Origin: Embleya hyalina | GTDB lineage: Bacteria; Actinomycetota; Actinomycetes; Streptomycetales; Streptomycetaceae | NCBI RefSeq assembly: GCF_003967355.1 | Contig: NZ_BIFH01000037.1 | Location: forward strand, 88,277-152,276 | Length of the DNA stretch: 64,000 nucleotides | Direction: 5' to 3' | Part shown: piece after piece, positions 12,384 to 30,158 of the stretch | How positions within the stretch are numbered: position 1 is the stretch's first letter | How the letters are laid out: every line of letters starts with the position of its first letter | Made by a program: the position numbers and the translations under genes | Notes under the pieces: model-generated | Databases searched by the model: none | What the model was told of the DNA's origin: nothing | Seen by the model: the letters and a program-made list of their open reading frames with translations, nothing else

Positions 12384-13461
12384 GGACGTTCTCCGTTTCC
12401 AGGCCGTTCGCCTCGCATGCCTCGCGGAAGACCCGCAGGCAGCGCTGCCAGGGTTGACCCGGTTCTCCCAGGGTCAGTAGATGGGGCGTCAGTTCGGCGG
12501 AGAAGGCGGTACTGGCCTCGCCGGGAAGCAGCGACGGCAGGTTGTCGATGGCGATCACCCCTAGCGGGTCACCGACATCGGTCAACGCGCGGACCGGTTC
12601 GCGCCAATCGGTGATGTCGTCGTAGACGGGCAACACATTGTTCCGGGACGTGACATCACAGGTGACGTCCACGATCAGGGACAGTCGCCGAGGCCCGGAC
12701 CGGAGCGACGCGAGGGTCACGAACGGCGGGGTCGGCGCGGTCACCAGCACGGCGTTGACGAGGATGTCGTGATCGAGCAGGGCCGCGTGATCCAGCGACC
12801 TGGTCTCGGCCACGTCCCAGCAGGTCGGCTCGATTCCGGCGACCGCCAGCGCGTCGCGCGCGCCGCGCCCGCACCGGCCCAGCGCCCCGATGACCAGCAC
12901 CCTCGGCCGCGCGCCGCTCGACGTCTCGCGCAACACCCGGTCCAGGTCCTCCTTCGGGCGCGGGCGCAGCGGCGGATCGAGCCGGCCCCGATGCCGGAGC
13001 ACCGCGAGCGCGGCGCCCACATATCCGGCCCAGTAGCCGAAAGCGGCCAGCCGCCGACCGTCCGCGTCGGTGAGGTATTCCAGGTCGAGCAGCGCGCCGG
13101 CGCCCGCCGTGAAGCGCCGCAGCAGCGCCCGGGCGTCGCGCTGGCCCTTGTACGCGTGGCCGAAGAACACGTGCCGGTGCCGCAACGCGGGCGGCTCGTC
13201 GGGGAGTTCCTTCAGGCCCACGACGAACTCCGCGGCTGGCGCGGCGCGCCAGCTCCCGGCGTCGGCGGCCACGCAACCGGCGTCGAGGTAGTCCCCGATC
13301 GGGAACACGCGCTGCGGCGAGTGCTCGACGGTGACCGTGATGCCGTGCGCGACGAGCCGCGCGGCGTCGGCCGGCACGATCGGCGCGCGCCGCTCGCTCT
13401 CGCGCGTCTCGTGCCGCATCGTGATCCCGACATCGGTCGTGCGCGGGCGGGGATCGGCCAT
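12376..13461 (-). CDS. Saccharopine dehydrogenase, lysine-forming (LYS1)-like
   Basis: A 361-residue protein of the alanine dehydrogenase/LYS1 family. It shows the N-terminal signature MRHETRESERRAPIVPADAA, the conserved HVFFGHAYKGQ (HAYK with the catalytic His/Lys pair), LLDLEYLTDADGRRLAAFG and the dinucleotide-binding segment VLVIGALGRCGRGARDA. LYS1 interconverts saccharopine with lysine and 2-oxoglutarate using NAD(H). Most bacteria make lysine by the diaminopimelate route and lack this enzyme, so its presence beside a LYS9-like gene in a lysine-consuming operon is telling. Length is close to fungal LYS1 (about 370). Confidence 0.87.
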   Translation of the reverse strand: MADPRPRTTDVGITMRHETRESERRAPIVPADAARLVAHGITVTVEHSPQRVFPIGDYLDAGCVAADAGSWRAAPAAEFVVGLKELPDEPPALRHRHVFFGHAYKGQRDARALLRRFTAGAGALLDLEYLTDADGRRLAAFGYWAGYVGAALAVLRHRGRLDPPLRPRPKEDLDRVLRETSSGARPRVLVIGALGRCGRGARDALAVAGIEPTCWDVAETRSLDHAALLDHDILVNAVLVTAPTPPFVTLASLRSGPRRLSLIVDVTCDVTSRNNVLPVYDDITDWREPVRALTDVGDPLGVIAIDNLPSLLPGEASTAFSAELTPHLLTLGEPGQPWQRCLRVFREACEANGLETENVHV

Positions 13462-15898: not shown

Positions 15899-16816
15899 TC
15901 ATGCGCCGGCTCGGCGCAGCAGCACCCCGATCCGCTGCCCGGGGACGCCGGCGGCCAACAGGTAGTGCCGGCCCGGTTGTACGTGCCCCGCCTCGGCCCG
16001 GTCGACCAGGTTGATCAGCGGGTCGGCGGCGAAGCAGTGGCCCACCCGGGTGATGTTGTCCAGATGGAGCTGGGCCGGGGTGAAGCCGGCCTGTCGTTCC
16101 TTCATCACGATCACGGGTTTGAAGATGTTCGCGTGCATCAGGCCCGCGATGTCGCCCGGCTTCATGCCCAGGGGGGTGAGCAGGCGCTCGTTCACGGTGC
16201 GGGCCAGGTCCGCGCTGATCTCGTTGGAGTGCGCCAGCCTGCTCCGGTCCTCGGCGCTCGCGCAGGCCAGGATCTCGTAGCCGCCCTCGATCTCGCCGTC
16301 GGCCGTCACCAGGCAACTCGCCGCCCCGTCGCTGAACAGCGCGTAGCTCGCCATGCGGTCGTCCTCGTGCGCGGCGCTGTCGGTGGTGACCACCAGCACC
16401 CGCCGGTGGCGGCCGGCGCGGACGAACGCGGTCGCGGTGTCGATCGCGGCCAGCAGGTTGACGCAGCGGTTCATGTTCTGCCCGTAGAAGGGCACGTCGC
16501 CCAGGCCCGCCTCGGCCAGGAACGTCTCCATGAACGCGCCGTGCCCTTCCGAGGGCCCGGGCACGCGGGTGGAGCACAGCACGACGGCGTCGGCGTCGCT
16601 CGCGCCGGCGCGCAGCGTGGCCGCGGCGCTCTCCGCGGCCAGCTCGGCCAGGCCGCGCTCGGTCCGGCGCACGCTGCCCCAGCCCCACAGGTCGGGCGTC
16701 GGTGCCATCCTGAACTCGGCGGCGCGCGCGGGCAGATTGCCGATGCTCGTGTGCGCGACCTCGAACTCGCCCAGGACGTAGCGTGGTGCGTGCAGGTGGG
16801 CGGCCGGTGCGCTCAC
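15899..16816 (-). CDS. KAS III-like acyltransferase with Cys-His-His site
   Basis: A 305-residue thiolase-fold protein of the beta-ketoacyl-ACP synthase III class. Cys118 lies in QNMNRCVNLLAA and His228 in GLMHANIF. The usual active-site Asn (in GNTSAAS) aligns with His260 in RVGHCFAADP. FabH enzymes condense acyl-CoA with malonyl-ACP using Cys-His-Asn. Relatives with altered triads, such as CerJ, instead form esters or amides. The operon has no ketosynthase-extending partner enzymes, so acyl transfer from a carrier to an O or N nucleophile is more likely than chain extension (inference). The GTG start overlaps the stop of the preceding gene by 4 bp. Confidence 0.8.
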   Translation of the reverse strand: MSAPAAHLHAPRYVLGEFEVAHTSIGNLPARAAEFRMAPTPDLWGWGSVRRTERGLAELAAESAAATLRAGASDADAVVLCSTRVPGPSEGHGAFMETFLAEAGLGDVPFYGQNMNRCVNLLAAIDTATAFVRAGRHRRVLVVTTDSAAHEDDRMASYALFSDGAASCLVTADGEIEGGYEILACASAEDRSRLAHSNEISADLARTVNERLLTPLGMKPGDIAGLMHANIFKPVIVMKERQAGFTPAQLHLDNITRVGHCFAADPLINLVDRAEAGHVQPGRHYLLAAGVPGQRIGVLLRRAGA

Positions 16817-17676
16817 GCGTCCTCCTCCGATGCGCCGGCCGGCGCGGACATCAGCGTGTTCGCCTCGGCGTAGGGCACGGCCTCGGCGACGAACGTGAAC
16901 GTCCCGTGCTCGTGCACCTCGCGCGCGGCGCGCAGGAAACCGCCCAGCGCGGCCCGGGCGAACGCCGAGCCCAGGCTGATCCGTCGGGCGCCCAGCTTCT
17001 CCAACTCCGGTACGGACAAAGCCGGTCCGACTCCCGCGAGCACGTTGACGGGCCGGTCGAGCACCGAGCACACGGTGCGGATCGCCTCCACGTCGGGCAG
17101 GCACGGCGCGTACAGCACGTCGGCGCCCGCCTCCTCGTACGCCCGAAGCCGTGCGAGGGTGTCCGCGAAGTCGCGGCGGCCGTGCAGGAAGTTCTCCGCC
17201 CGCGCGGTCAGCGTGAACGGGAACGGCAGCGCCCGGGCCGCCGCCACGGCGGCCGTCACCCGCTCCACGGCCACATCGATCGGCAGGATCGGGTCGGCCG
17301 GATCGCCGGTGGCGTCCTCGATGGAGGCACCGACCAGGCCCGCCTCGGCGGCCAGGCGGATCGTCTCGGCGATCTCCTCGCCCGAGGCGCCGTAGCAACT
17401 CTCCAGGTCGGCGCTGACCGGGTGCGGCGTCGCGGCCACGATCGCGCGCGCGTTGTCCAGCGCCTGACCACGATCCAGCAGGTTCACGCCGTCGGTGTGG
17501 CCCAGCGCGAAGGCCAGTCCCGCGCTCGTGGTCGCCAGCGCGGTGAAGCCGAGCCCCGTCAGCAGGCGGGCGCTGCCCGCGTCCCACGCGTTCGCCACCA
17601 CGAACGCTCCCGGGCTCTCGTGCGCCTCCTTGAAGGCGAGGCCCCTGCGGTACTGGTCAGCCGGGTCGAGCAGCAT
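16813..17676 (-). CDS. PEP mutase/isocitrate lyase-family protein
   Basis: A 287-residue TIM-barrel protein of the ICL/PEPM superfamily. It has FVVANAWDAGSARLL at the first strand, the metal-binding region SADLESCYG (DxDxGYG-like), GASIEDATG, TARAENFL and LGVG-like RISLGSAFARAA near the end. Members include methylisocitrate lyase, PEP mutase and oxaloacetate hydrolase. The ICL signature K-K-C-G-H is not present, so it is not a standard isocitrate lyase. No partner enzymes of phosphonate biosynthesis are nearby. A role in making a small 2-oxo acid or glycine/glyoxylate-type precursor is possible (inference). Confidence 0.75.
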   Translation of the reverse strand: MLLDPADQYRRGLAFKEAHESPGAFVVANAWDAGSARLLTGLGFTALATTSAGLAFALGHTDGVNLLDRGQALDNARAIVAATPHPVSADLESCYGASGEEIAETIRLAAEAGLVGASIEDATGDPADPILPIDVAVERVTAAVAAARALPFPFTLTARAENFLHGRRDFADTLARLRAYEEAGADVLYAPCLPDVEAIRTVCSVLDRPVNVLAGVGPALSVPELEKLGARRISLGSAFARAALGGFLRAAREVHEHGTFTFVAEAVPYAEANTLMSAPAGASEEDA

Positions 17677-17746: not shown

Positions 17747-18541
17747 TCAGATCACTTCGACGTGCTGGTCGGCCCGAACAGCGCTCAGCAGCAGGTCGAT
17801 CACCGCCGAGGGGCCCGTGTCGCGAAAGTGGAAGTGGCCGCCGTCGACCCAGTGGCACTCGGGCGGGCGCACACACTCCCCCTCCCACAACGCGACCTTG
17901 TCGGCGGACAGATAGGGGTCGTCGCGCCCGGCGATCACCGTGACGCCCACCGACAACGGTGCGGCGGCCGTGTACTCGTATCCGGCGGCCATCCGGAAGT
18001 CGGCGATCACGCCGGGCAGCAGCAGGTCCAGGACCTCCTCCTGGGCCAGGACCTCCGGGGGCAGCCCCTCGAAGAACTCCAGTGCCTCGGCGAACGCGCG
18101 GCCCTCCAGGGCGGCGAGCCGACACACCCGCTCCGAGGGCGCGAGCGAGGGGGCCGAGACCCCGGAGACGAACAACCGGCGCAGCGCGGGTACATCGCGC
18201 AACCGCCGCGCGGTCTCGAACGCGACGAGGCTGCCCAGGCTGTGCCCGAACAGGTACACCGGCCGCGTGCCGTCGGCGCCCGCCGCGCCGGCCCGGGCCC
18301 GGATCGCCGAGGCCGCGCCGTCCGCGAACCCCGCCAGCGTCGGTCGGGCCTCCCGGGCCCGGTGCGCGCGGCCGGGTGGGCACACCGCGACCAGTTCGGC
18401 CTCGTCGCCCAATTCCTCCTGCCAGGCCAGGAACGACCGCGAGTCGCCGCCGGCGTGCGCGAAGCAGTAGACGAGCGGGGTGTGCGCGGCGGCGTCGTCG
18501 CGCGAGACGAACCAGCCGTCGCCGGTCACGGACACACTCAC
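17747..18541 (-). CDS. Type II thioesterase (alpha/beta hydrolase)
   Basis: A 264-residue stand-alone thioesterase of the GrsT/RifR type. VYCFAHAGGDSRSF forms the N-terminal region, LFGHSLGSL carries the nucleophile Ser101, and VDGGHFHF the catalytic His. Such enzymes remove wrong or stalled acyl groups from carrier domains. Because the NRPS here ends in a carrier without its own thioesterase, this protein might also release the product (inference). The GTG start overlaps the stop of the C45 gene by 4 bp (GTGA). Confidence 0.88.
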   Translation of the reverse strand: MSVSVTGDGWFVSRDDAAAHTPLVYCFAHAGGDSRSFLAWQEELGDEAELVAVCPPGRAHRAREARPTLAGFADGAASAIRARAGAAGADGTRPVYLFGHSLGSLVAFETARRLRDVPALRRLFVSGVSAPSLAPSERVCRLAALEGRAFAEALEFFEGLPPEVLAQEEVLDLLLPGVIADFRMAAGYEYTAAAPLSVGVTVIAGRDDPYLSADKVALWEGECVRPPECHWVDGGHFHFRDTGPSAVIDLLLSAVRADQHVEVI

Positions 18542-19635
18542 GAGGTCACCTCCGCCGACGCGGACCCGCCGAGCGTCGCGGGCGCGCCCAGTGCGAACGA
18601 GTGGGTGCGGTTCAGCGCCGGATCGCCCGGCCGCACGTGCAGTTCGCCGAGGTCCGGCCGCAACACCGCGGCCGCCACCGTGCGTTCCCGGCGGATGTCG
18701 CCGTTGCCCTCGACCCGGATCGGCGCCCGCGACAGCAGCGCGAAGTGTTCCTCGACGCCGGCGTCGGGCGGCAACTCGCCCACCCGGGCCCGGCAGGCGT
18801 CCAGCCGCTGCCGGGAGAAGTTCCGGGCGAAGACGTTGAGCTCGTCGTGGGCGAGGAAGTCCGGGTGCAGGAAGTGGTTGGTGTGCATGCTCGTCGAGGA
18901 CTCGCTCACCCGCTGCTCGTCGTCCAGGATCTCCACCCACGCCGTCTTGCGGGCGTCGCACAACACCAGGTTGCGCGAACTCGCGAGCCTGAGGGTGCGC
19001 AGGATCCGCACCGCCTCGTCCACGTCGGCGGCGCTGTCCAACAGATGACGGATGGCCAGGTACGGCGGCAGACCCGGCCGCCACCGGCCGCCGAGCACGA
19101 GGTTGAGCCCGACCGCCAGGCCGTCGCTGTTGATCCCGAGATAGCCCAGGAGGCCACCGAAGCCGAGCACCAGGACCCGGCGGGGCGAGCCGGTCCGCGC
19201 GATGTCCAGGACACAGATCTGGTCGTCGAGGTCGCCGTTGAGATCGACCGTCTGCGCCAGCACCGCACCGGCCGCGCCGGCGACGGCGTACGTCGTGCAG
19301 TCGCCCATGGTCGGGATGCGCCGGTACCCCATCACCTCGCGCCGGATCTGCAGCAGCAGCGCCTCGTCGGCATCGAGCCCCGCGCCCTCGGCCAGCCCGC
19401 GCAACTCCTCGGCCAGCAGCGGCGCCTGGGTCTCGATCTCGACCCGGTACGCGTCCAGCGTGGGCCGCAGCGTCGCCCACGACACCGGGGTCGACCCGAC
19501 CCGGTTCAGCCGGGCCAGTCCGTCGTCGAGGAAGGCCCGCAGGCTCTCGGCGCGTTCGACGCCGTGCCGCCGCCCGCACGCGAAGGCGTCGCCCCGGGCC
19601 CGCACCACCGGCACCGCGAGGGTGTCGGGGGTCAT
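18538..19635 (-). CDS. C45-family Ntn-hydrolase (acyl-CoA:6-APA acyltransferase-like)
   Basis: A 365-residue protein of the peptidase C45/IAT family. Gly-Asp before Cys113 in PTMGDCTTYAV marks the expected self-cleavage point that would expose an N-terminal Cys nucleophile. LGINSDGLAVGLNLVL and TSMHTNHFL are typical later motifs. Penicillin isopenicillin-N acyltransferase from this family removes and adds acyl groups on amines. In this operon a plausible job is removal or exchange of a protecting acyl group put on by the GNAT protein next to it (inference). ATGA overlap with the GNAT gene sets the start at 19635. Confidence 0.82.
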   Translation of the reverse strand: MTPDTLAVPVVRARGDAFACGRRHGVERAESLRAFLDDGLARLNRVGSTPVSWATLRPTLDAYRVEIETQAPLLAEELRGLAEGAGLDADEALLLQIRREVMGYRRIPTMGDCTTYAVAGAAGAVLAQTVDLNGDLDDQICVLDIARTGSPRRVLVLGFGGLLGYLGINSDGLAVGLNLVLGGRWRPGLPPYLAIRHLLDSAADVDEAVRILRTLRLASSRNLVLCDARKTAWVEILDDEQRVSESSTSMHTNHFLHPDFLAHDELNVFARNFSRQRLDACRARVGELPPDAGVEEHFALLSRAPIRVEGNGDIRRERTVAAAVLRPDLGELHVRPGDPALNRTHSFALGAPATLGGSASAEVTS

Positions 19636-20246
19636 GCCTGCCCCGTCGGCCGGGTCACCTTGGGCCCGGCGAGCAACTGCTCCCGCACCGACGGCCATTC
19701 GCCGCGCAGCACGCTGTAGTAGATCGCGTCCCGGCGCCGCCCGCCGGGCATCGGATTGAAGCTGCGCAGCACCCCCTCCTCGGTGGCGCCGATGTTGCGC
19801 AGACCCGCCCGCGCCTGGAGGTTGAGCACGTCGGTCTTGAACTCCACCCGCTCGGCACCCAGTTGTTCGAACGCGTGCTCCAGCATGAGGAACTTCGCCC
19901 AGCGGTTGACGCCCCTGCCCCGGAACTCGGCGCCCAGCCACGACCACCCGATCTCCAGCCGCCCGTCCGGCTCGGCGATGCTGCAGAAGCTCATGCTGCC
20001 CGCCGTGCGGTCCACCGACTTGTCGATCACGTTGTAGACGACCCGGCGACCGGCGTCCTGATCGGCCAGCGCCGCGTCGAAGAACGCGTCGAACTCGGCG
20101 TCGGTGGCGATCACCAGCACGAAATAGCGCCAGATCTCGGGGTCCATCGCCTGTTTGCGGATCGCCTCGCGGTCCTCGGGGACGATCGGGCGCAGCAGGA
20201 CGTGCTCGTTCTCCAGTGTCGTCGAAGCGGTCCGCACCCAGGTCAT
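19632..20246 (-). CDS. GNAT-family N-acyltransferase
   Basis: A 204-residue GNAT protein of the RimJ/RimL-like group, with LLRPIVPEDREAI at the start, strand LEIGWSWLGAEFRGRGVNR containing the acyl-CoA pyrophosphate-binding RGRGVN motif, and AGLRNIGATEEGVLR. It sits 1 bp from the ACP gene, and the ligase is beside that. In triacsin biosynthesis a GNAT enzyme succinylates hydrazinoacetate before loading on a carrier, so the same masking step is the leading guess here. Self-protection by acylating the product is the alternative. Confidence 0.82.
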   Translation of the reverse strand: MTWVRTASTTLENEHVLLRPIVPEDREAIRKQAMDPEIWRYFVLVIATDAEFDAFFDAALADQDAGRRVVYNVIDKSVDRTAGSMSFCSIAEPDGRLEIGWSWLGAEFRGRGVNRWAKFLMLEHAFEQLGAERVEFKTDVLNLQARAGLRNIGATEEGVLRSFNPMPGGRRRDAIYYSVLRGEWPSVREQLLAGPKVTRPTGQA

Positions 20247-20247
20247 C

Positions 20248-20511
20248 TCAAGCCGCCTTTCCGGCGTGGCGCGACAGCGCCTCGGTGACGTCGCGCAGCG
20301 TGCTCATGGCCGCGACGTCGGGTTCGGTGAAACAGGCCAGGTCCACCCCGGCATCGTCGCAGGCGGCCATCAGGAACAAGACCTTGTTCAGTGAAGTCAA
20401 TCCGTACGTGCCGACCATGTCCTGGTCCGGGTCGATGTCCTGGGGGGCGACGTCGGACTCCAACACCCGGGCCAGGTTCGTCCTGGCCACGGTCTCAATC
20501 TCGGACTGCAT
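20248..20511 (-). CDS. Free-standing acyl carrier protein
   Basis: An 87-residue acidic helical protein with the phosphopantetheine site Ser40 in YGLTSLNKVLFL (DSL-like, here TSL). I chose the ATG at 20511; it overlaps the ligase gene end by 17 bp, so the pair is translationally coupled. It probably carries the acyl group activated by that ligase as a thioester while other operon enzymes act on it. Confidence 0.85.
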   Translation of the reverse strand: MQSEIETVARTNLARVLESDVAPQDIDPDQDMVGTYGLTSLNKVLFLMAACDDAGVDLACFTEPDVAAMSTLRDVTEALSRHAGKAA

Positions 20512-22045
20512 GGATGCCTCCCTCGGTGTCGTGGATCCGGGATCGGTAGGCGTCGAGAACGCGCCCACGCCTGGGCTTGAGCTGGGAGGTGAGCAGTCCG
20601 TTCCCGACACTGAACCGGGGACTGGCCACCACCACCGCGCGGATCTGCTCGTCGGGGCCGAACGCCGCGTTGGTAAGGGCCAGTTGCTCGGCGACGGCGC
20701 GCTCCAGGTCGGGTCCGCTCGCGTCCTCGGCCGGGGAGACCACGGCGACCAGCCGGGTCTGCGTCGGGCAGAACACCACACATTCCTCGATCGCGGGACT
20801 GGCCTTCATCCGCTCCTCCAGCGGCCGCACGACGACCTTGCGGCCGTTGTCCAGCACGATCACGTCGTCGGCGCGGCCGTGCACGAACAGGAAACCGTCC
20901 TCGTCCAAGTGGCCGATGTCGTTGGTACGCACCGTGCCGTCGGGGGCGAACACCCGCTCGGACACCCCGGGCGGCGCCTGCTCGTAACCCGCGCACACCG
21001 GGTGGTCGGCGTGTACGTGGATCACCCCTTCGGCGTCCAATATCACCCGTTTGCCCGGCAGTACGCGCCCGACGCTGCCCCGCCGATGCGCGCCGGGGTG
21101 GTTCTTGGTGACGATGCACGTCTCGTTGAGGCCGTAGCCCTCGAAGATCGGCAGTCCCGCGTCCTCGAAGAAGGCGAGCGTGCCGGTCGAGGCCGGCGCC
21201 GAACCGGTCCACAGATAGCGGATGCGGTCGCCGAACAACCGCCGCGCGCCGTCGCGGCGCGCCGTCGCCTCGTCCGTGTCGGCACCCGCGCCGCGCATCC
21301 GCGCCTCGATGTGCTTCCTGGCCGTCTCGAAGAACCCCGGCACGCCCATCACCACCGTCGGCCGGATCGCGCGCAGCGCCGGGAACGCGGCCTCGTAGGT
21401 GCAGATCGTGACGTCGTGGCCCCAACGCAGCGCGGAATACGTCCAGTAGCGCTGCTGGAGCACCGACAGCGGCAAAAACACGAGCAGGTTGTCCCCGTCG
21501 CCGTGCGCGAACATCTCCTGGACCGCGCGCAGATCGTCGTCGATGCTGCCGACGGACGCGGTGAGCGTCTTGGGCTCGCCGGTGCTGCCCGAGGTGAGCT
21601 TCAGCGACAACACGTCGTCGGGCGAGTAGACGACCGGCTCCAATACCCGGCCGTCGTCCGACAGGGCCGCCGCGACCTCGATCTCGGCGAGCGCCCTGCT
21701 GCCGGGGGCCCGCGCCGGGCCGTCGGTGAACAGCACACCCAGGCGGTAGCGTTCGCGCAGTCCGGTGTCGGTGTCGAACTTGGCCGGGTCGAAGCCCACC
21801 GTCACCGCGCCCAGGCGGATCGCCGCGAGATCGAGCAGCACCCATTCGAGGCCGTTCGCGGCGATGACACCGATCCGGTCGCCCCGCTCGATGCCCAGGT
21901 CGCGCAACCACAGCGCGAGGCGCCCGGCACGCGTGTGCAGTTCGGTCAGCTCCATCGTCCGGGTCCCGCCGAGCCGGAAGAAGGAGACGCGCCCGCCGGG
22001 GGAGGGGGCCCGGGAGGCGATGTGGTTGATCACCGAGTCGCTCAC
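20495..22045 (-). CDS. AMP-forming acyl-ACP/acyl-CoA ligase
   Basis: A 516-residue ANL-superfamily ligase of the FadD/long-chain type. Motifs are LTSGSTGEPKTLT (P-loop), EGYGLNETCIVTK, TNDIGHLDEDGFLFVHGRADD, and NGLLTSQLKPRRGRV holding the C-terminal catalytic Lys. It forms an acyl-adenylate and transfers it to a thiol, here most likely the ACP encoded next to it. The substrate could be hydrazinoacetate or its N-acyl form, as in triacsin, or a fatty acid. The GTG start overlaps the NRPS stop (GTGA, 4 bp). Confidence 0.85.
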   Translation of the reverse strand: MSDSVINHIASRAPSPGGRVSFFRLGGTRTMELTELHTRAGRLALWLRDLGIERGDRIGVIAANGLEWVLLDLAAIRLGAVTVGFDPAKFDTDTGLRERYRLGVLFTDGPARAPGSRALAEIEVAAALSDDGRVLEPVVYSPDDVLSLKLTSGSTGEPKTLTASVGSIDDDLRAVQEMFAHGDGDNLLVFLPLSVLQQRYWTYSALRWGHDVTICTYEAAFPALRAIRPTVVMGVPGFFETARKHIEARMRGAGADTDEATARRDGARRLFGDRIRYLWTGSAPASTGTLAFFEDAGLPIFEGYGLNETCIVTKNHPGAHRRGSVGRVLPGKRVILDAEGVIHVHADHPVCAGYEQAPPGVSERVFAPDGTVRTNDIGHLDEDGFLFVHGRADDVIVLDNGRKVVVRPLEERMKASPAIEECVVFCPTQTRLVAVVSPAEDASGPDLERAVAEQLALTNAAFGPDEQIRAVVVASPRFSVGNGLLTSQLKPRRGRVLDAYRSRIHDTEGGIHAVRD

Positions 22046-25000
22046 GGCGTGCTCGCCCCCGCCCCGGTGCGCTCGGCCAGGCCGCGTTCGATGTGCGCGG
22101 CCATCGTGCGGATCGTGTCCACCTCCGGCAGGCGGTCCAGCGTGATGGTCAGACCGAACCGTTTGCGCACCCCGGCCAGGATGCGCGCGGCCACCAGCGA
22201 GTCGCCGCCCAGGTCGTACAGCGGGCGCGTGACGTCCAGGTCGACGTCCGCGACGCGCAGCGGTTTGGCCCACAACCCGGCGACCACCAGCTCCAGTTCC
22301 GAATCGGCGGCGGTGGGCGCGGTCGAGGCCGGCCCGGCCGCCTCGGCGGCGGCCGCGAGCCCGGCCCGGTCGACCTTGCCGTTGCGGGTCAACGGCAGCG
22401 CGGCGTGCCAGTACACCGCGGCCGGGATCATGTACTGCGGCAGATGTTCGCGCAGCGCGGCGCGTACCGCCTCCACGTCCGGGCGTTCGTCGCCGGCGGG
22501 GACCAGATGGGCGACCAGCCGATCGCCCCGCGCGCCGGGCTGCCGGGAGACCACCGCGCGTTCCACGGCGGACAGCGCGACCAGTCGGGTCTCCACCTCG
22601 CCGGCCTCGATGCGGTAGCCGTTCACCTTGATCTGGAAGTCACCCCGACCGAGGATGTCGATCTCGCCGTCCGGCAGGTAGCGGCCCAAATCCCCGGTCC
22701 GGTACAGGCGTTCACCGCGTTCCGGATCGAGCACGAAGCGCGCGGCGGTCAACTCCGGGTCGTCCCAGTAGCCCCGGGCCAGACCCACCCCGGCGGCCCA
22801 GATCTCGCCGGTGACCCCGTCGGGCACGTCGCACCCGAACTCGTCGAGCAGGTAGGCCCGGTTGTTCGCGTTGGGCCGGCCGTAGGGGATGCTGCGCGAG
22901 CCGTCCTCGTCCGGGCCGATCGGGTGCGACACGTTCCAGATCGTGGTCTCCGTCGGCCCGCCCAACGAGACGATCCGCGCGTCCGGCACGAGCTTGCGCA
23001 GGTCCTGCGGCAACGTCGGCGGGATACGGTCGCCGCTCATCATCACCAGGCGCAGCGTGTCCAGCGCGTCCGTACCCTCCGCCGCCTGGTCGCGCAGCAG
23101 CGACACGATCGCCGGCACCGAGTTCCACACGCTCACGCGCGCCTCGGCGCACAACGACAACCAGTGCGCGGGATCGGCCGCGCGGTCCGCGTCCGGCAAC
23201 ACCACGGCCGCCCCGGCGCACAGGGCGCCGAAGACGTCGTAGACGGACAGGTCGAAGTTGAAGGCGCTGATGCCGAAGAATCGGTCCGTCGGCCCGATGC
23301 CGAAGCGCGTGTTGCAGTCGGCGACCACGTTGGCCACACTCCCGCGAGCGACCATGACGCCCTTGGGCTCGCCCGTGGTCCCCGACGTGTACAGCACGTA
23401 CGCCAGATGGTCGTCGTTGCTCGCACCGGGCACCGGACGCGGATCGGGCACCGGTCCCGGCGGCAGCGGGCGGCCGACGTCGAGCACGAGGACCTCGCGT
23501 CCCGCCTCGGCGCCCGCCCGCGCGTCGTTGGTCAACACCACCCGCGCCCGGCCGTTGTCCAGCATGTACGCGCGCCGCGCCGGCGGGAGCGCGGCGTCGA
23601 CGGGCAGGTACGCGGCCCCGGCGAGCATCGTCGCGAGGATGCCGACGACCTGCTCGGGCCCACGCCCCATCACCAGCCCGACCAACTCGTCCGGGACCAC
23701 GTCGTGGGCGCGCAACCAGGCGGCGGCGTGTGCCGCGTGCCCGTACACCTGCGCGTAGCTGAGCGAGGCACCCGCGGTCAGCACCGCCGGCGCGTCCGGC
23801 GCACGCTCCACGTGCGCCAGGAACGCGTCGATCAACATGCCCGGCGCGGGCGGCGCCGTCGCCGTCGCGTTGGCCGTCCGGCGGCGTTCGCGCTGCGCCT
23901 CGGGCAGCAGGTCGAACGTCCTCGCCGACCACGACTCCTCGGCGAGCAGCGCCTCCAGCAGGTGCTGGTAGCCCGATACCAGATCCGGTACCAGACCGTC
24001 CGGGAACAGCCCGTCGACACTGTCGAACTGCACCACGACGCCGCCGTGTTGCTCGAACGTGGAGACGTCGAGCCACACCTGCGGGGTCTGACTGGAGGTG
24101 TACACCTCCGGCCCGAACACCTCCAGGGCCGAGCCGTCGACGTCGGCGTGCGCGTAGCCGAGCGCGCTGTTGAACGTGTACGGCATCGGCCCGCGCGCCG
24201 CGCCGTCGCCGCGTCGGGCCGCCTCGCGCAACACCTCGATGCCGGTGAAATGCCGGTTGTCCAACCCCCGGCGCAGCCCGGCCTGCAACGCCCGGGCCCG
24301 CTCGACGAAGGGCAGGCGTCGGTCCACCTCGATCTCGACGAGCATCGTCTCGCAGAAGTTGCCGACGGCCTCGAAGATGCGCGGGTGGATCGGCGGACGG
24401 TTCGCCACCGTGGTGTTGATCGTGAACCGCGAACCGGCGCCCCAGGCCGCGAGGGTGTCCGCGTAGACCGCGAACAGCACCGCGGAGGGGGTGAGTCCGG
24501 CCGCCGCCGCCCGGGCCTTGAGCGCGCTCCACCGCGGCTCGGTCAGCCGGGCGAAGCGCGCCGAGAAGCGTGGTGCCACGATCGAGGAGGGGCTGGTACG
24601 CAGGGGCAGGTCCGGGGCGGGCGCGAGGTCGTCGAGCCGCTCCATCCAATACCCGCGGGCCCGCTTCGCCGGGGCCCGGGTACGCGCGGCCTCGACCGCG
24701 GCCACGTACGCCTCGAAGGACGCCTCCTCCGCCGGGCTTTCGGCGGCGTCCTCGCCCGCGTCGTAGGCCCGGCGCCAGTCGCGGAAGAACAGGAACATGG
24801 CGATCGCGTCCATGACCAGGCCGTCGTGGTCGACGTGCAGCACCATCCGATCGTCCGCCAGCACGGTGACGTCGACCGCCACGAGCGGCGCGCGGTCGGC
24901 GGGCAGCACACGGTGCGAGCGCGACGCGCGTTCGGCGCGCAGGTGTTCGTGCCGCGTCGCCTCGGACGCGTCGCGCAGGTCCATGCGCCCGACGCGCACC

Positions 25001-25383
25001 TCGACCTCGGCCTCCCGCACCTGTCGGCCGTCGGGGGTGAAGCGGGTGCGCAACGCGTCGTGGCGCGCCACCACCGCGCGCAGCGCGGCCTCCAGGCGGT
25101 CGAGGTCCCAGGCACCCTCGATCTCGTGGTAGACGTGACTGGCCACGTTGCCCATCTCGACGTGCTCGCCCCGCCCGACCAGGTAGCTGCGTTGCAGGTC
25201 GGTCATCGCGAAGCCGTCCGGCGGGTCCAGATGGGCGACCAGGGCCGCCTTGTGCTCCTTGATCAGGCGCAGCAGTTCGGGATCCATCCGTTCCCGGGGA
25301 CCCTGCAGGCGCAGATCGGCTCCGGAGGCCGAGATGGTCAGCCCTCTGGCCTCGATCTCGCGGAGAACCCCGAGGTGCTTCAC
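22042..25383 (-). CDS. NRPS module: TubC docking - Cy (cyclization) - A (predicted Cys) - PCP
   Basis: A 1113-residue single module. Residues 1-52 (KHLGVLREIEARG) are a TubC-type N-terminal docking domain. Residues about 58-480 match Cy domains: FAMTDLQRSYLVGR, D187-x4-D192-x2-A195 (the DxxxxDxxS motif with Ser changed to Ala), and SQTPQVWLDVS. The A domain (YTSGTTGEPKGVM, FDLSVYD, GGPTETTIW, NGYRIEAGEVE) gives the ten-residue code D-L-Y-N-M-S-L-I-W-K by alignment to PheA, a known cysteine code. The PCP has LGGDSL near the end. Cy plus Cys normally yields a thiazoline. No oxidase, epimerase or thioesterase domain is present. GTG start at 25383 overlaps the upstream stop (GTGA). Confidence 0.9.
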   Translation of the reverse strand: MKHLGVLREIEARGLTISASGADLRLQGPRERMDPELLRLIKEHKAALVAHLDPPDGFAMTDLQRSYLVGRGEHVEMGNVASHVYHEIEGAWDLDRLEAALRAVVARHDALRTRFTPDGRQVREAEVEVRVGRMDLRDASEATRHEHLRAERASRSHRVLPADRAPLVAVDVTVLADDRMVLHVDHDGLVMDAIAMFLFFRDWRRAYDAGEDAAESPAEEASFEAYVAAVEAARTRAPAKRARGYWMERLDDLAPAPDLPLRTSPSSIVAPRFSARFARLTEPRWSALKARAAAAGLTPSAVLFAVYADTLAAWGAGSRFTINTTVANRPPIHPRIFEAVGNFCETMLVEIEVDRRLPFVERARALQAGLRRGLDNRHFTGIEVLREAARRGDGAARGPMPYTFNSALGYAHADVDGSALEVFGPEVYTSSQTPQVWLDVSTFEQHGGVVVQFDSVDGLFPDGLVPDLVSGYQHLLEALLAEESWSARTFDLLPEAQRERRRTANATATAPPAPGMLIDAFLAHVERAPDAPAVLTAGASLSYAQVYGHAAHAAAWLRAHDVVPDELVGLVMGRGPEQVVGILATMLAGAAYLPVDAALPPARRAYMLDNGRARVVLTNDARAGAEAGREVLVLDVGRPLPPGPVPDPRPVPGASNDDHLAYVLYTSGTTGEPKGVMVARGSVANVVADCNTRFGIGPTDRFFGISAFNFDLSVYDVFGALCAGAAVVLPDADRAADPAHWLSLCAEARVSVWNSVPAIVSLLRDQAAEGTDALDTLRLVMMSGDRIPPTLPQDLRKLVPDARIVSLGGPTETTIWNVSHPIGPDEDGSRSIPYGRPNANNRAYLLDEFGCDVPDGVTGEIWAAGVGLARGYWDDPELTAARFVLDPERGERLYRTGDLGRYLPDGEIDILGRGDFQIKVNGYRIEAGEVETRLVALSAVERAVVSRQPGARGDRLVAHLVPAGDERPDVEAVRAALREHLPQYMIPAAVYWHAALPLTRNGKVDRAGLAAAAEAAGPASTAPTAADSELELVVAGLWAKPLRVADVDLDVTRPLYDLGGDSLVAARILAGVRKRFGLTITLDRLPEVDTIRTMAAHIERGLAERTGAGASTP

Positions 25384-27683
25384 GCCGGCACCCCCGTGCG
25401 TGCGGCGACGTCGTCCGGATCCAGGCCCTCGGCGATCAGCGCGCTCAGTTCGGCGACGGTGCGGGCGCCGAGCAGTTCCTCGATCGGCACGTCGGCGTCC
25501 ACCTGCTCGGTGAGTCGGTACTGCAGGGCGATCGCCTGGAGCGACGCCATGCCCAGCTGGATCAGCGAACGGTCGTGCACGGGCTCGTCGGCGGGCAACC
25601 GCAGGAGATCGCGCACCAGCGCGCTGAACCAGGGGAGCAGCGGCGGCGCCGGTCGGTCGGCGGTCGGGTCCGAGGATCGCGCGTCGGCCGTCCCGGGGAC
25701 GGCGAAGAACTCCCGACCGGCCAGGTCGACGGCGGTCCCGGCGGGCACCAGGTCGACCCGGGCGGGCCAGCGGGTGGGCGCGGGGATGCCGAGCGCGGCC
25801 GAGAGGCGATCCGCGAACCGGGGCATCACCGGGGCGCCGCACGTGGCGAGCAGTCGGGCGGCGGCCAGTTCGAGGGCGATCCCCGTGCGCGCCTCGTCCT
25901 TGAAGTCCGCCACGTCGGCGGCGGGGGCCTGGAGACGGGCGAAGGCGGTGACGTCGGTGACGATGCCGTCCAGCAGTTCGGCCGCGCGGTTGAGCGAGAA
26001 GCCGTCCTGTCCCAGGGCCCCGGTCAGCGCCGACCGGCGCGCCTCCAGGCGGGCCAGGAAGGCCGCGTGCTCGGGCCGCCAGACGCCGGCGTCGGGTGCC
26101 ACGCCGGCGTGCCGCTCGGCGACGCGCTCGCCCAGGTCGTTCAACCACCTCTGCCAGGTGCCGACCAGGGTGTCGCGGACGAAGGTCTCGTAGGTGTCGG
26201 GGGAGAAGCTGGTGCGCCGGCCCTCGGGGCGGGTCAGCGCGAGGTAGAAGCGGATCGAGTCGACCGTGCGGGGGTTCAGCACGTCCTTGCCCCAGATCGC
26301 GTGGCCGCGGCTGGTGGAGAACTTGCTGTCCTCCAGGAGGTAGAACTCGTTGATGTTGTAGTCGATGTCCGGCTGCCAGCGCGGATGCGCGACCCGATAC
26401 AGCGCCGGGATGAACATGGGGTGGAAGAAGCTGCCGTCCGAGCCCAGGAAGTGCACGATCTTCCAGTCGGGCGAGGGGGCGTCCGCGTCCCAGTCGCGGC
26501 CCAGGTCGCGGCCGAGTTCGCCGATGCCGTACAGGATGCTGAAGGCGTAGTCCAGCCAGGACCAGATCACCTGGCCCGGCACATCGGTCTCGGCGGGGGC
26601 GATGCCCCATTCGGCCACGTGCGTGACCGGGATGTGCAACTGCTCGCGGCGGCCCAGGCGTTCGGCCAGTTCCTTGACCGCCGCCGGGACCCGGCCGAGC
26701 CGGTGGTGGTCGGTGACCACCTTCCCGAACTCGTGCAGCGGGAAGGTGTAGCGCACCAGGGCCCGCTCGTGCGGAGGCGCGTCGCACGCCGCCGAGCGCG
26801 GCTCGATCAGGTCGGTGCACACGTTGGGTTCCAGGCACGTCTCGCAGATGTTGCCGCCGCTGTCGCCGTCGCACGTGGGGCAGCGGCCGGAGACCCCCGA
26901 CTCGTACAGGTATTCGCCGGTGTCGGCGGCGAACAGCGCGGCACTCTCGCGCGGCGCCACGGTTCCCGACGCGGTCAGTCGGGAGAAGAACGCCCGCAGC
27001 GCGGCCGGATAGGCGTCGTCGCGACTGGTCGCGGTGTACTGGTGGACGTCGATGTCCATCAGCTTCAGCGTGGCCAGGATCTCGGCGCTGTAGTGCGCGG
27101 CGGTCTGCGCCGGGGTGCGGCCCTCCCGACGGGCGGCGGCCACCACGTAGTTCTGGTAGTCGTCGCTGCCGGTGATGTGCCAGGCGTCGGCGCCGAGCAT
27201 GCGCTGGTGGCGCACGAACACGTCGGCGCCGAAGAACGGCCCCGACAGGTGGCCCAGATGCAGGTCGCCGTTGGGTGTGGGCGCGGAGGAGAAGACGAAC
27301 ACGGGACGGGTGCCGAACCCGCGGTGTCCGGTGTCGTGGGCGGCGTGCGTCGCCCGTTCGCCGTCGCGCCAGTACAGGCTGACGAACAGCAGGTCGGTGT
27401 CTCCCGTGTTCTCCACGGAGTGGGTCTCGAACGGTTCGAACTGGACCACGGTGGAGGCGGACACCGGATGGCGTTCGGCGTCCACGGTCAACTCCCCGGT
27501 GCCGGAGACGAACACCCATGTCTCCGTCTCGTCGTGCTGGTGCGCCTCCGAGCGCGCGCCGGGGGCGACACCGACCCAGGTCGCGCCGACACCCAGCCGC
27601 GTCGCGGAGCCCGCCTCCACGGCGGCCACGGCGACGCCGTCGGCGGCGTGGGGGGCGTCGGGGCGGTAGGTGCTGATCTTCAC
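25380..27683 (-). CDS. Hydrazine synthetase-like cupin/MetRS-like protein with fused C-terminal carrier domain
   Basis: A 767-residue protein. Residues about 1-115 are a cupin with G42-x5-H48-x-H50-x3-E54-x6-G61 and later H88-x3-N92. Residues about 125-640 resemble methionyl-tRNA synthetase: HLGH (142-145), a zinc knuckle C268/C271/C280/C283 and a KMSKS-like KFSTSRG (454-460). Spb40 in s56-p1 biosynthesis has this cupin-MetRS layout and joins N6-hydroxylysine to glycine through an N-N bond using ATP. Unlike the Spb40-type layout as I know it, residues about 675-760 form a carrier domain with Ser714 in LGMASLQAIAL. Its short tail runs to the NRPS start, whose product has a docking domain. Confidence 0.9.
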   Translation of the reverse strand: MKISTYRPDAPHAADGVAVAAVEAGSATRLGVGATWVGVAPGARSEAHQHDETETWVFVSGTGELTVDAERHPVSASTVVQFEPFETHSVENTGDTDLLFVSLYWRDGERATHAAHDTGHRGFGTRPVFVFSSAPTPNGDLHLGHLSGPFFGADVFVRHQRMLGADAWHITGSDDYQNYVVAAARREGRTPAQTAAHYSAEILATLKLMDIDVHQYTATSRDDAYPAALRAFFSRLTASGTVAPRESAALFAADTGEYLYESGVSGRCPTCDGDSGGNICETCLEPNVCTDLIEPRSAACDAPPHERALVRYTFPLHEFGKVVTDHHRLGRVPAAVKELAERLGRREQLHIPVTHVAEWGIAPAETDVPGQVIWSWLDYAFSILYGIGELGRDLGRDWDADAPSPDWKIVHFLGSDGSFFHPMFIPALYRVAHPRWQPDIDYNINEFYLLEDSKFSTSRGHAIWGKDVLNPRTVDSIRFYLALTRPEGRRTSFSPDTYETFVRDTLVGTWQRWLNDLGERVAERHAGVAPDAGVWRPEHAAFLARLEARRSALTGALGQDGFSLNRAAELLDGIVTDVTAFARLQAPAADVADFKDEARTGIALELAAARLLATCGAPVMPRFADRLSAALGIPAPTRWPARVDLVPAGTAVDLAGREFFAVPGTADARSSDPTADRPAPPLLPWFSALVRDLLRLPADEPVHDRSLIQLGMASLQAIALQYRLTEQVDADVPIEELLGARTVAELSALIAEGLDPDDVAARTGVPA

Positions 27684-27702: not shown

Positions 27703-28809
27703 TCACGCGTGCGGAGGAATCGAGGACAGGTCCAGCAGATCCGCGGCCTCCGCCGCGATCGCCGGGGCGAGCCGATATCCGGACCCGTTGGCGGCGCCGG
27801 CGAAGACGACGCGGCCGTCGCCCAGCGCCCGCACCTGCGGTTCGCCGGTGGGGCTGTACGCGTCGCAGAACACCCGTCCCGAGACGCGGTGTTCGGCCAG
27901 CGCGGGGGCGTGGCGGCGCAGGCTCGCGCGCGCCTGGTCGACGTCGTCGGCGGACAGGCCGCCGGCCAGGTCGTCGGGATCGACGTCCCAGGTCGTACAG
28001 GTGTAGCTGAACAGCCAGTGCCCCGAGGCGTGCAGCGGCAGCAGGAAGGCGTCCTCGTCGTGGAAGACGACGGCCCGGTCGGTGCGGGTCGGAACCCGCT
28101 CGACGTGCAGCGCGACGATCTTCTTGACCCGGGCGCCGAGCGGGGCCAGCGACTCGCGCCAGGCGGGTTCGGCGAGCCAGGGTCCCGGGGCCAGCACGAC
28201 CCGATCCGCGGTCACCGTCTCCCCGGTGCCGAGGGCGAGTTCGACACCGCCCACGTCCGGCTCGCGGCCGGGGTCGGTGTGGCCGACGGCGCGCATCGTA
28301 TCCACGTGCACGCCCTCGCGCAGGGTCACCCGTGCCCGCAGTTCGCGGGTGAGGTCGCGCACCAGCGCGTAGACGTCGGCGTACTGGGCGCCCCGACACT
28401 CCCAGATCCGCGCGTGCTCGGGAAGTCGTAGATCGGGCGCGCCGGCTCGGTCCTCGGAAGGGTCGACGGGGGTCAACTCGGCGCTGTCGAGGTAGATCTC
28501 GTGCACGCGCGAGGCGTTCACGGGGGAGGCGACCACCGACATCGGGACCGCGTGAATCGGCAACTCGGGAGCGTTGTGCTTGAGTTCCGCGTAGTAGTCC
28601 TGGCTGTACGCCGTCATGCGCCGCACCCGCTCCGTCGCGCCGCGCGGACAGTGCAGTCCGGCCGACCGGCGGCTCGCGCCGGCACCGACGGTGTCCCGGT
28701 CCAGGAGCAGGACGGACGCCTCCGGCGCGCGGGCGACGATCTCCCGGGCGACCAGGCAGCCGACGATTCCGGCGCCGACGACCGCCACATCGGTGTGTTC
28801 CCGGTTCAC
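27703..28809 (-). CDS. FAD-dependent oxidase (DAO family), hydrazinoacetate-releasing type
   Basis: A 368-residue FAD protein of the D-amino-acid/glycine oxidase family. The dinucleotide site is VAVVGAGIVGCLVA at residues 8-21, followed by DTVGAGASRRSAGLHCPRG, and the C-terminal FAD segment is VVFAGAANGSGYRLAPAIA. In the s56-p1 and triacsin pathways the homologue oxidises the lysine-glycine hydrazine to release hydrazinoacetate and leave 2-aminoadipate 6-semialdehyde. Its place between the lysine hydroxylase and hydrazine synthetase genes supports the same role. GTG start overlaps the hydroxylase stop by 4 bp. Confidence 0.87.
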   Translation of the reverse strand: MNREHTDVAVVGAGIVGCLVAREIVARAPEASVLLLDRDTVGAGASRRSAGLHCPRGATERVRRMTAYSQDYYAELKHNAPELPIHAVPMSVVASPVNASRVHEIYLDSAELTPVDPSEDRAGAPDLRLPEHARIWECRGAQYADVYALVRDLTRELRARVTLREGVHVDTMRAVGHTDPGREPDVGGVELALGTGETVTADRVVLAPGPWLAEPAWRESLAPLGARVKKIVALHVERVPTRTDRAVVFHDEDAFLLPLHASGHWLFSYTCTTWDVDPDDLAGGLSADDVDQARASLRRHAPALAEHRVSGRVFCDAYSPTGEPQVRALGDGRVVFAGAANGSGYRLAPAIAAEAADLLDLSSIPPHA

Positions 28810-30158
28810 AGAGCGTCCAGGTCGTCGACGGGCGGTTTGGCGGACCACTCGACGAACGACGGCAATTGTTCGTCGGAGCCCACCCCCAGAAGCCGGTCGA
28901 GGATGCGCCGGCTGCGCCAGGCGGTCAGGCTCAGATTGGGGTCCGCCAGCCCGCGCTGACCGCGTGCCGCGTTCTGCATGAAGATGAGGCGGTCGCGGGG
29001 GCCGTCCCATTGCACGGCGAAATCCCGGTCGATGCGATACTCGTCGCCCTCGCGTTCCAGACGGCTCTCGATCGGCGCGAGGAATTCGGTCGACGCCGGA
29101 CGGAATCCGGTGGCCCACACGATGGTGTCCACATCCACGTACTCGACCACGTCCGGCCGGTCGTTGTGGCCCATCTCGATGGTCCACCCGCCGGACTCGT
29201 TCCCGCTCACGTCGGTGACCGCACGATTGGGCAGCAGCGCCAGCAGATCCTGCGTGCCCTCGATGAAGCGGTGCTCGTAGCAGCGCTGGTAGATGTCCCG
29301 CAACGTCGACTCGGAGATGCCGTCGCTGCTCAGCACATGACGACTGTTGAGCGACTCGCGAACCGCCCGGTCCACCCCGGCGAAATACTCCGAATAGCTG
29401 GGCGTGTAGTACTCGTTCGTGAACGGCGAGTCGTCGATGGGAAAGTAGTTCCCGCGCCGCGAGATCCAGGTGACACGCCGGGGCAGCTCCTTCGGCGCAC
29501 GGGATATCAGATCCAGAAACGCCTCGGCCCCGGACTGGCCGCCACCGACCACGGCGACCCGCTTTCCGGCAAGTCCGGGCCGTGTTCCGTCGATGAAATC
29601 GCTGACGTGGAACTGCGTGTCGCCGAGTTTGTCCCGGGCATGTGCGGGAACCCATGATCTGGTGCCCACGCCGACGCAGATGTTCTCCGCGGTGACGGTG
29701 CGCCTGCTGGTGTGCACGACGAACGAATCACGTACGTCGTCGAAATCCACGGCGACCACTTTTTCGCCGAAGACGATGTTCTCGTTGCGTCGGCTCGCCC
29801 ACTCCAGATAGTTCCTGAATTCCCGGCGGGGAACCGCGTCGTATTGGGCGTTGATGAAGTGGTAGATCTTGCCCTGCTCGTGCAGATACGAGAGGAAGGA
29901 AAACTCGTTGGTCGGGTCGGAGAGGATGACGAGATCCTTGAGCAACGACACCTGTAGCGACGCGCCGGGTATCTGCTGATTGTCGTGCCAACCGAATCTT
30001 TCCTTCTGGTCGAGAAAGAGGTTCGGTGTCTCCGAGCGCCCGTGCAGCAGTGACGCCAGGCTCAGGTTGGCGGGACCGACTCCGATGCCGACGCAGCGGT
30101 ACTGCGCCGATTGGGGTTCGCTGTTTCCCGAAACACGGTTTTCGACTGGTTTCCCCAC
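28806..30158 (-). CDS. L-lysine N6-hydroxylase (flavin N-monooxygenase)
   Basis: A 450-residue class B N-hydroxylating monooxygenase (IucD/SidA/PvdA type). FAD site GIGVGPANLSLASLL (about 24-38), the substrate-pocket stretch SLLKDLVILSDPTNEFSFLSYL, NADPH site VAVVGGGQSGAEAFLDL, and the C-terminal ATGFRP. It hydroxylates the side-chain amine of lysine using NADPH and O2. No siderophore synthetase is nearby; the hydrazine synthetase gene in the same operon makes lysine the likely substrate for N-N bond formation. It is the first gene of the 16-gene unit; the start is GTG and the Shine-Dalgarno match is weak. Confidence 0.9.
   Translation of the reverse strand: MGKPVENRVSGNSEPQSAQYRCVGIGVGPANLSLASLLHGRSETPNLFLDQKERFGWHDNQQIPGASLQVSLLKDLVILSDPTNEFSFLSYLHEQGKIYHFINAQYDAVPRREFRNYLEWASRRNENIVFGEKVVAVDFDDVRDSFVVHTSRRTVTAENICVGVGTRSWVPAHARDKLGDTQFHVSDFIDGTRPGLAGKRVAVVGGGQSGAEAFLDLISRAPKELPRRVTWISRRGNYFPIDDSPFTNEYYTPSYSEYFAGVDRAVRESLNSRHVLSSDGISESTLRDIYQRCYEHRFIEGTQDLLALLPNRAVTDVSGNESGGWTIEMGHNDRPDVVEYVDVDTIVWATGFRPASTEFLAPIESRLEREGDEYRIDRDFAVQWDGPRDRLIFMQNAARGQRGLADPNLSLTAWRSRRILDRLLGVGSDEQLPSFVEWSAKPPVDDLDAL

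Follow-up and report, generated by a model that had tools for sequence, protein, structure and literature searches.

A cluster collinear with that of azaserine, lacking AzsF and AzsG, in Embleya hyalina

What does a nonribosomal peptide synthetase (NRPS) with a heterocyclization-type condensation (Cy) domain and a cysteine-type adenylation (A) code make when it is encoded directly beside a hydrazine synthetase? The question is raised by the gene at 22042-25383 on the minus strand of a 64,000-nt stretch of Embleya hyalina DNA (contig NZ_BIFH01000037.1, positions 88,277 to 152,276), the whole of which is called the window here and supplies all coordinates given for this cluster. A preliminary description made from the sequence alone had predicted a hydrazinomethyl- or diazo-type thiazoline. 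Comparison with published homologs and related clusters leads us to a different answer, to which we give a probability of roughly 55%: the gene would be an AzsO-type module of an azaserine-family pathway, and the product an azaserine analogue carrying a hydrazino-acyl group not derived from glycine on serine or cysteine, N-oxidized by AzsE. The window cluster probably makes a compound that is related to azaserine and yet different from it. Azaserine itself is a long-known antitumour glutamine antagonist, the diazo-forming step of which is still unsolved.

Catalytic residues of the NRPS

The gene starts with GTG, and its first 4 bases are also the last 4 of the gene for the hydrazine synthetase (25380-27683). 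Its product matches the Pfam families Condensation (E 2e-36), AMP-binding (E 2e-83) and PP-binding (E 2e-13), as well as TubC_N (PF18563) at E 2e-4 and 21.9 bits, under the curated cut-off of 26, and its residues 1-52 are predicted to form the helix-strand-strand-helix-helix order of TubC/beta-hairpin docking domains. Together with the PDB relatives of the Cy part, these results bear out the TubC-Cy-A-CP architecture (CP, carrier protein) of the preliminary description, including the docking domain, the predicted topology of which fits even though the Pfam score lies below the cut-off. The predicted template modelling score of the structure model was low (0.56), and pocket geometry was not read from it. 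The parts of the gene are as follows.

22042..25383, minus strand: AzsO homolog, NRPS TubC-Cy-A-CP, 1113 amino acids (Pfam and homology)
25228..25383, minus strand: TubC-type N-terminal docking domain, residues 1-52 (weak PF18563 match and predicted topology)
23899..25215, minus strand: Cy domain (Pfam and PDB relatives)
24808..24825, minus strand: DGLVMD, the DxxxxD motif with Asp187 and Asp192 (alignment)
24169..24171, minus strand: Asn405, where ring-forming Cy domains have their catalytic Thr (alignment)
24067..24069, minus strand: Asp439, the catalytic Cy Asp, retained here and Asn in most azaserine-type homologs (alignment)
22351..23841, minus strand: A domain with the code DLYNMSLIWK (Pfam and PheA alignment)
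23239..23241, minus strand: Tyr715, PheA position 239, Trp in all clusters with F and G (alignment)
22090..22284, minus strand: carrier domain with Ser1062 (Pfam)

The closest PDB relatives of the Cy part are the heterocyclization domains of EpoB, HMWP2, Irp2, BmdB and PchE. The catalytic Thr, which lies in FTS or LTS in EpoB, HMWP2, Irp2 and BmdB, is Asn405 (FNS) in the window, a substitution missed in the preliminary description. Ring-forming Cy domains have both this Thr and the catalytic Asp, whereas the window protein combines Asn405 with Asp439; what it does carry is the AzsO-type signature of ester-forming Cy domains, DxxxxD with Thr replaced by Asn. Since Asn405 is this published signature, the thiazoline prediction is left unsupported, and Cy family membership by itself was rejected as a lead to a thiazoline because of the same residue. 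The Cy-A(Cys)-CP modules of yersiniabactin and pyochelin share with the window the Cy fold, DxxxxD, the Asp and a Cys-type A code, but Cy domains of this ring-forming type have the catalytic Thr where the window has Asn.

The published biochemistry of AzsO points the same way. The protein was predicted by antiSMASH to use cysteine but loads serine; its Cy domain accepts the acyl group in vitro only from the carrier fused to AzsN, and the product is an ester to the serine side chain without a ring (PMC10445470). No cyclodehydrated product was obtained from wild type or variants, changing the Cy Asn abolished activity, and among AzsO homologs the Thr is Asn in all while the Asp is kept in some (PMC10445470). 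The preliminary description had named the carrier fused to the hydrazine synthetase as the simplest donor, which agrees with this work on AzsN and AzsO (PMC10445470). We therefore consider it likely that the window Cy domain forms no ring. Its change within DxxxxDxxA, pointed out earlier, is real, and the position drifts among relatives, being Gly in the nearest one and Ser in nearly all others; as a functional clue it was rejected.

The A code DLYNMSLIWK was confirmed when we re-read it by alignment to a PheA fragment. It is a listed cysteine code of the class DLYN(L/M)SLIWK, and to that extent the earlier cysteine call stands; a Cys-type code is insufficient proof of cysteine, however, as AzsO has a code of the same class and loads serine, so that cysteine is no more than a possible substrate. 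Position 239 (Tyr or Trp) was rejected as a way to tell the two amino acids apart, because DLWNLSLIWK is likewise listed for cysteine. Serine is somewhat favoured as the acceptor, at about even odds, and cysteine is a slightly less probable choice. For this family, antiSMASH-style calls that read "Cys plus Cy gives thiazoline" fail and should be treated with caution.

A clade of clusters without AzsF and AzsG

The NRPS gene belongs to a 16-gene cluster (8429-30158, minus strand) that, by gene order and homology, is collinear with the azaserine (azs) cluster, runs L-M-N-O-P-Q-S-T-B-C-D-E-H-I-J-K along the minus strand and equals the published azaserine gene list (PMC10445470) minus F, G and U.

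28806..30158, minus strand: AzsL homolog, lysine N6-monooxygenase (PF13434 and homology)
27703..28809, minus strand: AzsM homolog, FAD oxidase predicted to cleave the hydrazine intermediate (homology)
25380..27683, minus strand: AzsN homolog, cupin-MetRS-like hydrazine synthetase (MetRS, methionyl-tRNA synthetase) with a fused carrier domain (profile matches, MetRS alignment)
25434..25628, minus strand: carrier domain of the AzsN homolog, from which the Cy domain presumably takes its acyl group (function by homology, PMC10445470)
20495..22045, minus strand: AzsP homolog, AMP-dependent loading enzyme (Pfam and homology)
20248..20511, minus strand: AzsQ homolog, free carrier protein (homology)
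19632..20246, minus strand: AzsS homolog, GNAT, expected to succinylate the hydrazine (Pfam and homology)
18538..19635, minus strand: AzsT homolog, C45 peptidase, expected to remove the succinyl group (homology)
17747..18541, minus strand: AzsB homolog, thioesterase, expected release enzyme (Pfam and homology)
16813..17676, minus strand: AzsC homolog, isocitrate lyase/phosphoenolpyruvate mutase family (Pfam and homology)
15899..16816, minus strand: AzsD homolog, KAS III-like, acyl transferase between carriers (homology)
13510..15855, minus strand: AzsE homolog, 781 amino acids, haem-oxygenase-like diiron N-oxygenase family (PF14518 at residues 541-719)
12376..13461, minus strand: AzsH homolog, saccharopine dehydrogenase-like (homology)
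11223..12383, minus strand: AzsI homolog, saccharopine dehydrogenase (homology)
9757..11091, minus strand: AzsJ homolog, ATP-grasp protein (homology)
8429..9751, minus strand: AzsK homolog, MFS transporter (homology)

Synteny with azs-type clusters is retained at identities of 60-97%, and O shares 60-64% identity with the O proteins of those having F and G. A feature of the azaserine type, a cupin-MetRS-like hydrazine synthetase with fused carrier encoded directly upstream of a Cy-A-CP NRPS, is found in the window, as are the loading genes S, P, Q, T and D and the thioesterase gene B; the AzsN homolog is the sole match to the hydrazine synthetase in its own genome. With the azs/aza clusters of Streptomyces fragilis and Glycomyces harbinensis the window thus shares the core genes L, M, N, O, P, Q, S, T, B, C, D, E, H, I, J and K, the synthetase-fused carrier, a TubC-Cy-A-CP protein having DxxxxD and the Thr to Asn exchange, a standalone thioesterase and the diiron enzyme AzsE. 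It differs from them in having no acyl-CoA dehydrogenase AzsF, no cytochrome P450 (P450) AzsG and no adjoining phosphopantetheinyl transferase AzsU, in keeping the Cy Asp and Tyr239 instead of Trp in the A pocket, in a rebuilt hydrazine synthetase pocket, and in an L-to-T block placed upstream of B-C-D-E.

AzsF was found neither in the cluster nor on the contig, and no ortholog was found in the window genome, where the best match reached 35% identity compared with 52-69% among the clusters that have F, so that a copy hidden elsewhere in this genome was rejected. No AzsG was present between E and H or elsewhere in the cluster, the rest of the genome not having been searched for P450s. Homologous clusters were gathered from genomes and plasmid records with the hydrazine synthetase as query; a phylum-wide sample turned up only the window genome. 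Nine clusters have F and G between E and H, all with Trp at A position 239 and eight with Asn at the Cy Asp position. Thirteen clusters, including that of the window, have neither gene, and all 13 carry Tyr239 and the Cy Asp. The exchange of the Cy Thr for Asn is common to the 13 and to the azaserine-type homologs and is not seen in EpoB, HMWP2, Irp2 or BmdB. The clusters without F and G form a single clade with a support of 100/99 in a tree of 11 of the 13, and again of 100/99 in a tree with outgroups and 12 members. In one member, Amycolatopsis rhizosphaerae, the cluster neighbourhood is spread over contigs. Six further clade genomes that were searched likewise yielded no AzsF ortholog (best match 45% versus the 52-69% given above). 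The preliminary description had regarded such a system as not described, which is wrong for the architecture, known from azaserine since 2023, and may hold for this clade. The absence of the oxidases and the rebuilding of the pockets make the clade look like a new variant. Mining of diazo clusters by Pfeifer et al. demanded Pfam02770 (PMC13061610), and the clusters of the clade would therefore have been filtered out there.

We counted, for every shared protein, the sites fixed differently between the two clades; these tests ask where changes fell on a single branch, and the choice of pocket sets was made with the family already in view. The MetRS-like domain, which acts as the amino-acid gatekeeper of hydrazine synthetases (PMC8664883; PMC11705231), is altered in three segments.

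27276..27290, minus strand: pocket segment 1, SSAPT (glycine-type STPPT; alignment)
26535..26561, minus strand: pocket segment 2, SWLDYAFSI (glycine-type VWPEMSYGF; alignment)
26421..26447, minus strand: pocket segment 3, LGSDGSFFH (glycine-type FGYDNSFYH; alignment)

Hydrazinoacetate-type enzymes (azs, triacsin-like, Sinorhizobium and Mesorhizobium) align, with few exceptions, as STPPTPN, VWPEM(S/A) and G(Y/F)DNSFYH, and the clade as SSAPTPN, SW(L/I/V)D(Y/L)A and G(S/A)DG(S/T)FFHP. Nine of the 24 clade-fixed changes of N lie on 17 conserved pocket sites (P=1.6e-6; raw 4e-9). These are the positions conserved within the three segments, which in the alignment correspond to the methionine pocket of MetRS as defined for the Escherichia coli enzyme. 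The amino-acid pocket of the window enzyme differs from that of every glycine-type relative examined, which makes the hydrazinomethyl unit of the preliminary description doubtful. The rebuilt pocket makes it likely that the synthetase uses an amino acid other than glycine, and the sequence suggests something larger. Glutamate was rejected as a substrate, the pocket of a Rhodococcus jostii comparator, presumably the published Glu-type enzyme, being different. An altered pocket would predict a new hydrazino acid and offers a natural case for the specificity code of the family.

In O, 11 sites are clade-fixed. The A code and the motif regions account for four of them (P=0.001 when conserved sites are considered); from the window to the state in the clusters with F and G these are A193G (beside DxxxxD), D439N, S441F and Y715W. 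In AzsE, 19 of 23 changes (22 in another count) fall in the C-terminal catalytic region (P=0.007), the half that matches PF14518, while the putative metal ligands Glu575, His585, Glu638, His675, Asp679 and His685 do not vary. Clade-fixed changes are almost absent from the enzymes of the lysine side (L, M, H and I).

Proposed pathway and competing explanations

By analogy with the published homologs, L would hydroxylate lysine at N6, N would join hydroxylysine to an amino acid, here one other than glycine, and M would cleave off the hydrazino acid, which S, P, Q and T would succinylate, load and unmask. D would move the hydrazino-acyl group onto the carrier fused to N. The Cy domain of O would take it from there and, without forming a ring, acylate the side chain of the amino acid loaded on the carrier of O itself, and B would release the product. 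As the cluster encodes no dehydrogenase, we infer that the diiron N-oxygenase E may perform the entire N-oxidation of the hydrazine, with the product at the diazo, nitrosamine or hydrazine level; without F, either the hydrazine would stay reduced until E acts or an unrelated dehydrogenase would help. In the azaserine pathway, AzsF makes the hydrazone and belongs to the proposed minimal gene set (PMC10445470). A published proposal assigns the N-oxidation of both azaserine and N-nitroglycine to a haem-oxygenase-like diiron oxidase (HDO) (PMC13274452). That a sister clade has AzsE but neither the dehydrogenase nor the P450 suggests AzsE as the enzyme of N-oxidation, and the clade offers a smaller gene set for probing its role.

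Other known systems share parts of this layout. In the nng cluster of N-nitroglycine (Streptomyces noursei, S. yunnanensis), the genes for the hydrazine, for loading and for the NRPS resemble those of azaserine, and an HDO is again the proposed N-oxidizing enzyme. This pathway differs in using glycine and the essential metalloenzyme NngS, proposed for the last oxidation, a gene for which was not noted in the window. The dob (4-diazo-3-oxobutanoate, Nocardia ninae) and triacsin pathways reach the carrier-bound acyl group with the same set of hydrazine/hydrazone enzymes and have, unlike the window, an acyl-CoA dehydrogenase and polyketide machinery; in dob the ferritin-like Dob3 forms the diazo group.

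Several points weigh against our reading. The A code is a textbook cysteine code, and in retaining Tyr239 and Asp439 the clade resembles canonical Cys/Cy modules, so that cysteine, and even ring closure, could apply. The function of AzsF could be supplied by a distant acyl-CoA dehydrogenase from another part of the genome. The clade-specific changes all lie on one branch, making their co-occurrence a single event, and could be partly neutral; the changed synthetase pocket matches no reference enzyme of known specificity.

The alternative that survives best, although unlikely, is that cysteine is loaded and acylated on sulfur (or on nitrogen after an S-to-N shift) without ring formation, resulting in a hydrazino- or diazoacyl-cysteine. 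The listed code, the Tyr239 of ring-type outgroups and the Thr to Asn exchange, which speaks against a ring, are all in its favour, but AzsO uses serine with a nearly identical code (PMC10445470), and the listing of DLWNLSLIWK leaves position 239 settling nothing.

It is improbable that the cluster simply makes azaserine from glycine and serine, the functions of AzsF and AzsG being dispensable or supplied by other genes. The gene set is otherwise the same at 60% identity or more, the window genome has 38 matches to the acyl-CoA dehydrogenase middle domain, and the role of the P450 in azaserine is not proven (PMC10445470); however, all 13 members without F and G form one clade, the glycine pocket is replaced, and Tyr239 and Asp439 stand in place of Trp and Asn.

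Equally improbable is the thiazoline of the preliminary description, in which cysteine and a true heterocyclization would give a hydrazinoalkyl- or diazoalkyl-thiazoline. It can draw on the Cys-type code, the retained DxxxxD and catalytic Asp and membership in the Cy family, against which stand the Asn at the catalytic Thr in 13 of 13 clusters, the ester chemistry of AzsO and its loss of activity on changing the Cy Asn (PMC10445470).

As a special case of the azaserine-analogue reading, the product could be thrazarine, a known analogue of azaserine with no assigned cluster, for which threonine, in place of glycine, is the presumed precursor (PMC10445470). Three of the changed positions have smaller pocket-lining residues, as would suit a larger amino acid, but the substrate types reported for these synthetases (Gly, Ala, Ser, Glu and Tyr; PMC11705231) do not include threonine; we regard this assignment as a long shot. 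A combination in which a non-glycine hydrazino acid meets cysteine, the Asp-retaining Cy domain closes the ring and AzsE alone forms the diazo group, in place of azaserine's dehydrogenase-plus-oxidase route, to yield an alpha-substituted diazo- or hydrazino-thiazoline, is very unlikely.

Accessory genes and related clusters

The N-terminal half of AzsE (residues 33-308, window 14932-15759) resembles the N-oxygenases HrmI, RohS, FlcD and SznF in predicted structure (Z 18.7 to 13.3, HrmI being the match at 18.7), pointing to a second haem-oxygenase-like fold in which the typical ligand set is not evident; Pfam sees the C-terminal fold only, and the call comes from a second structure aligner, the Foldseek E-values being weak (0.01 or more). 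The AzsJ homolog (9757-11091) is unusually well conserved within the clade, sharing 72-73% identity with Pseudonocardiaceae members, compared with about 60% for most other proteins. Its ratio of clade-fixed to invariant sites is the highest of all, though it had been regarded as uninvolved in azaserine biosynthesis. The AzsC-type gene seems dispensable: it is cut to about 77 codons in Streptomyces sporangiiformans (1971-2204 of locus L024) and missing from the Pseudonocardiaceae clusters of the clade.

Among the other clusters, a split azaserine-like one (L126-L127, genome G827) has F but no G, with the Cy Thr present and Asn at the Asp position. Another (L070-L071, genome G039) has D, E, L, M, N, P, Q, S, T and a likely F without O, pairing an AzsE enzyme with some other acyl acceptor. 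The conjugative plasmid pSmeRU11d of Sinorhizobium meliloti (L130, 14318-30284) carries L, M, an N with carrier, O, P, Q, S, T, D, E and F beside two large NRPS genes, with the A code DLFNMSLVWK and Asn at both Cy positions. On the linear plasmid pSA3239 of Streptomyces lavendulae (L129, 1653-30354), a canonical azaserine-type cluster adjoins a VlmB-like gene and an additional gene for seryl-tRNA synthetase. AzsO-like Cy-A-CP genes without an adjoining hydrazine synthetase occur in Streptomyces NBC_01483 (L131) and NBC_01450 (L138), and in the former the Cy catalytic positions hold Asp and Thr in place of Thr and Asp.

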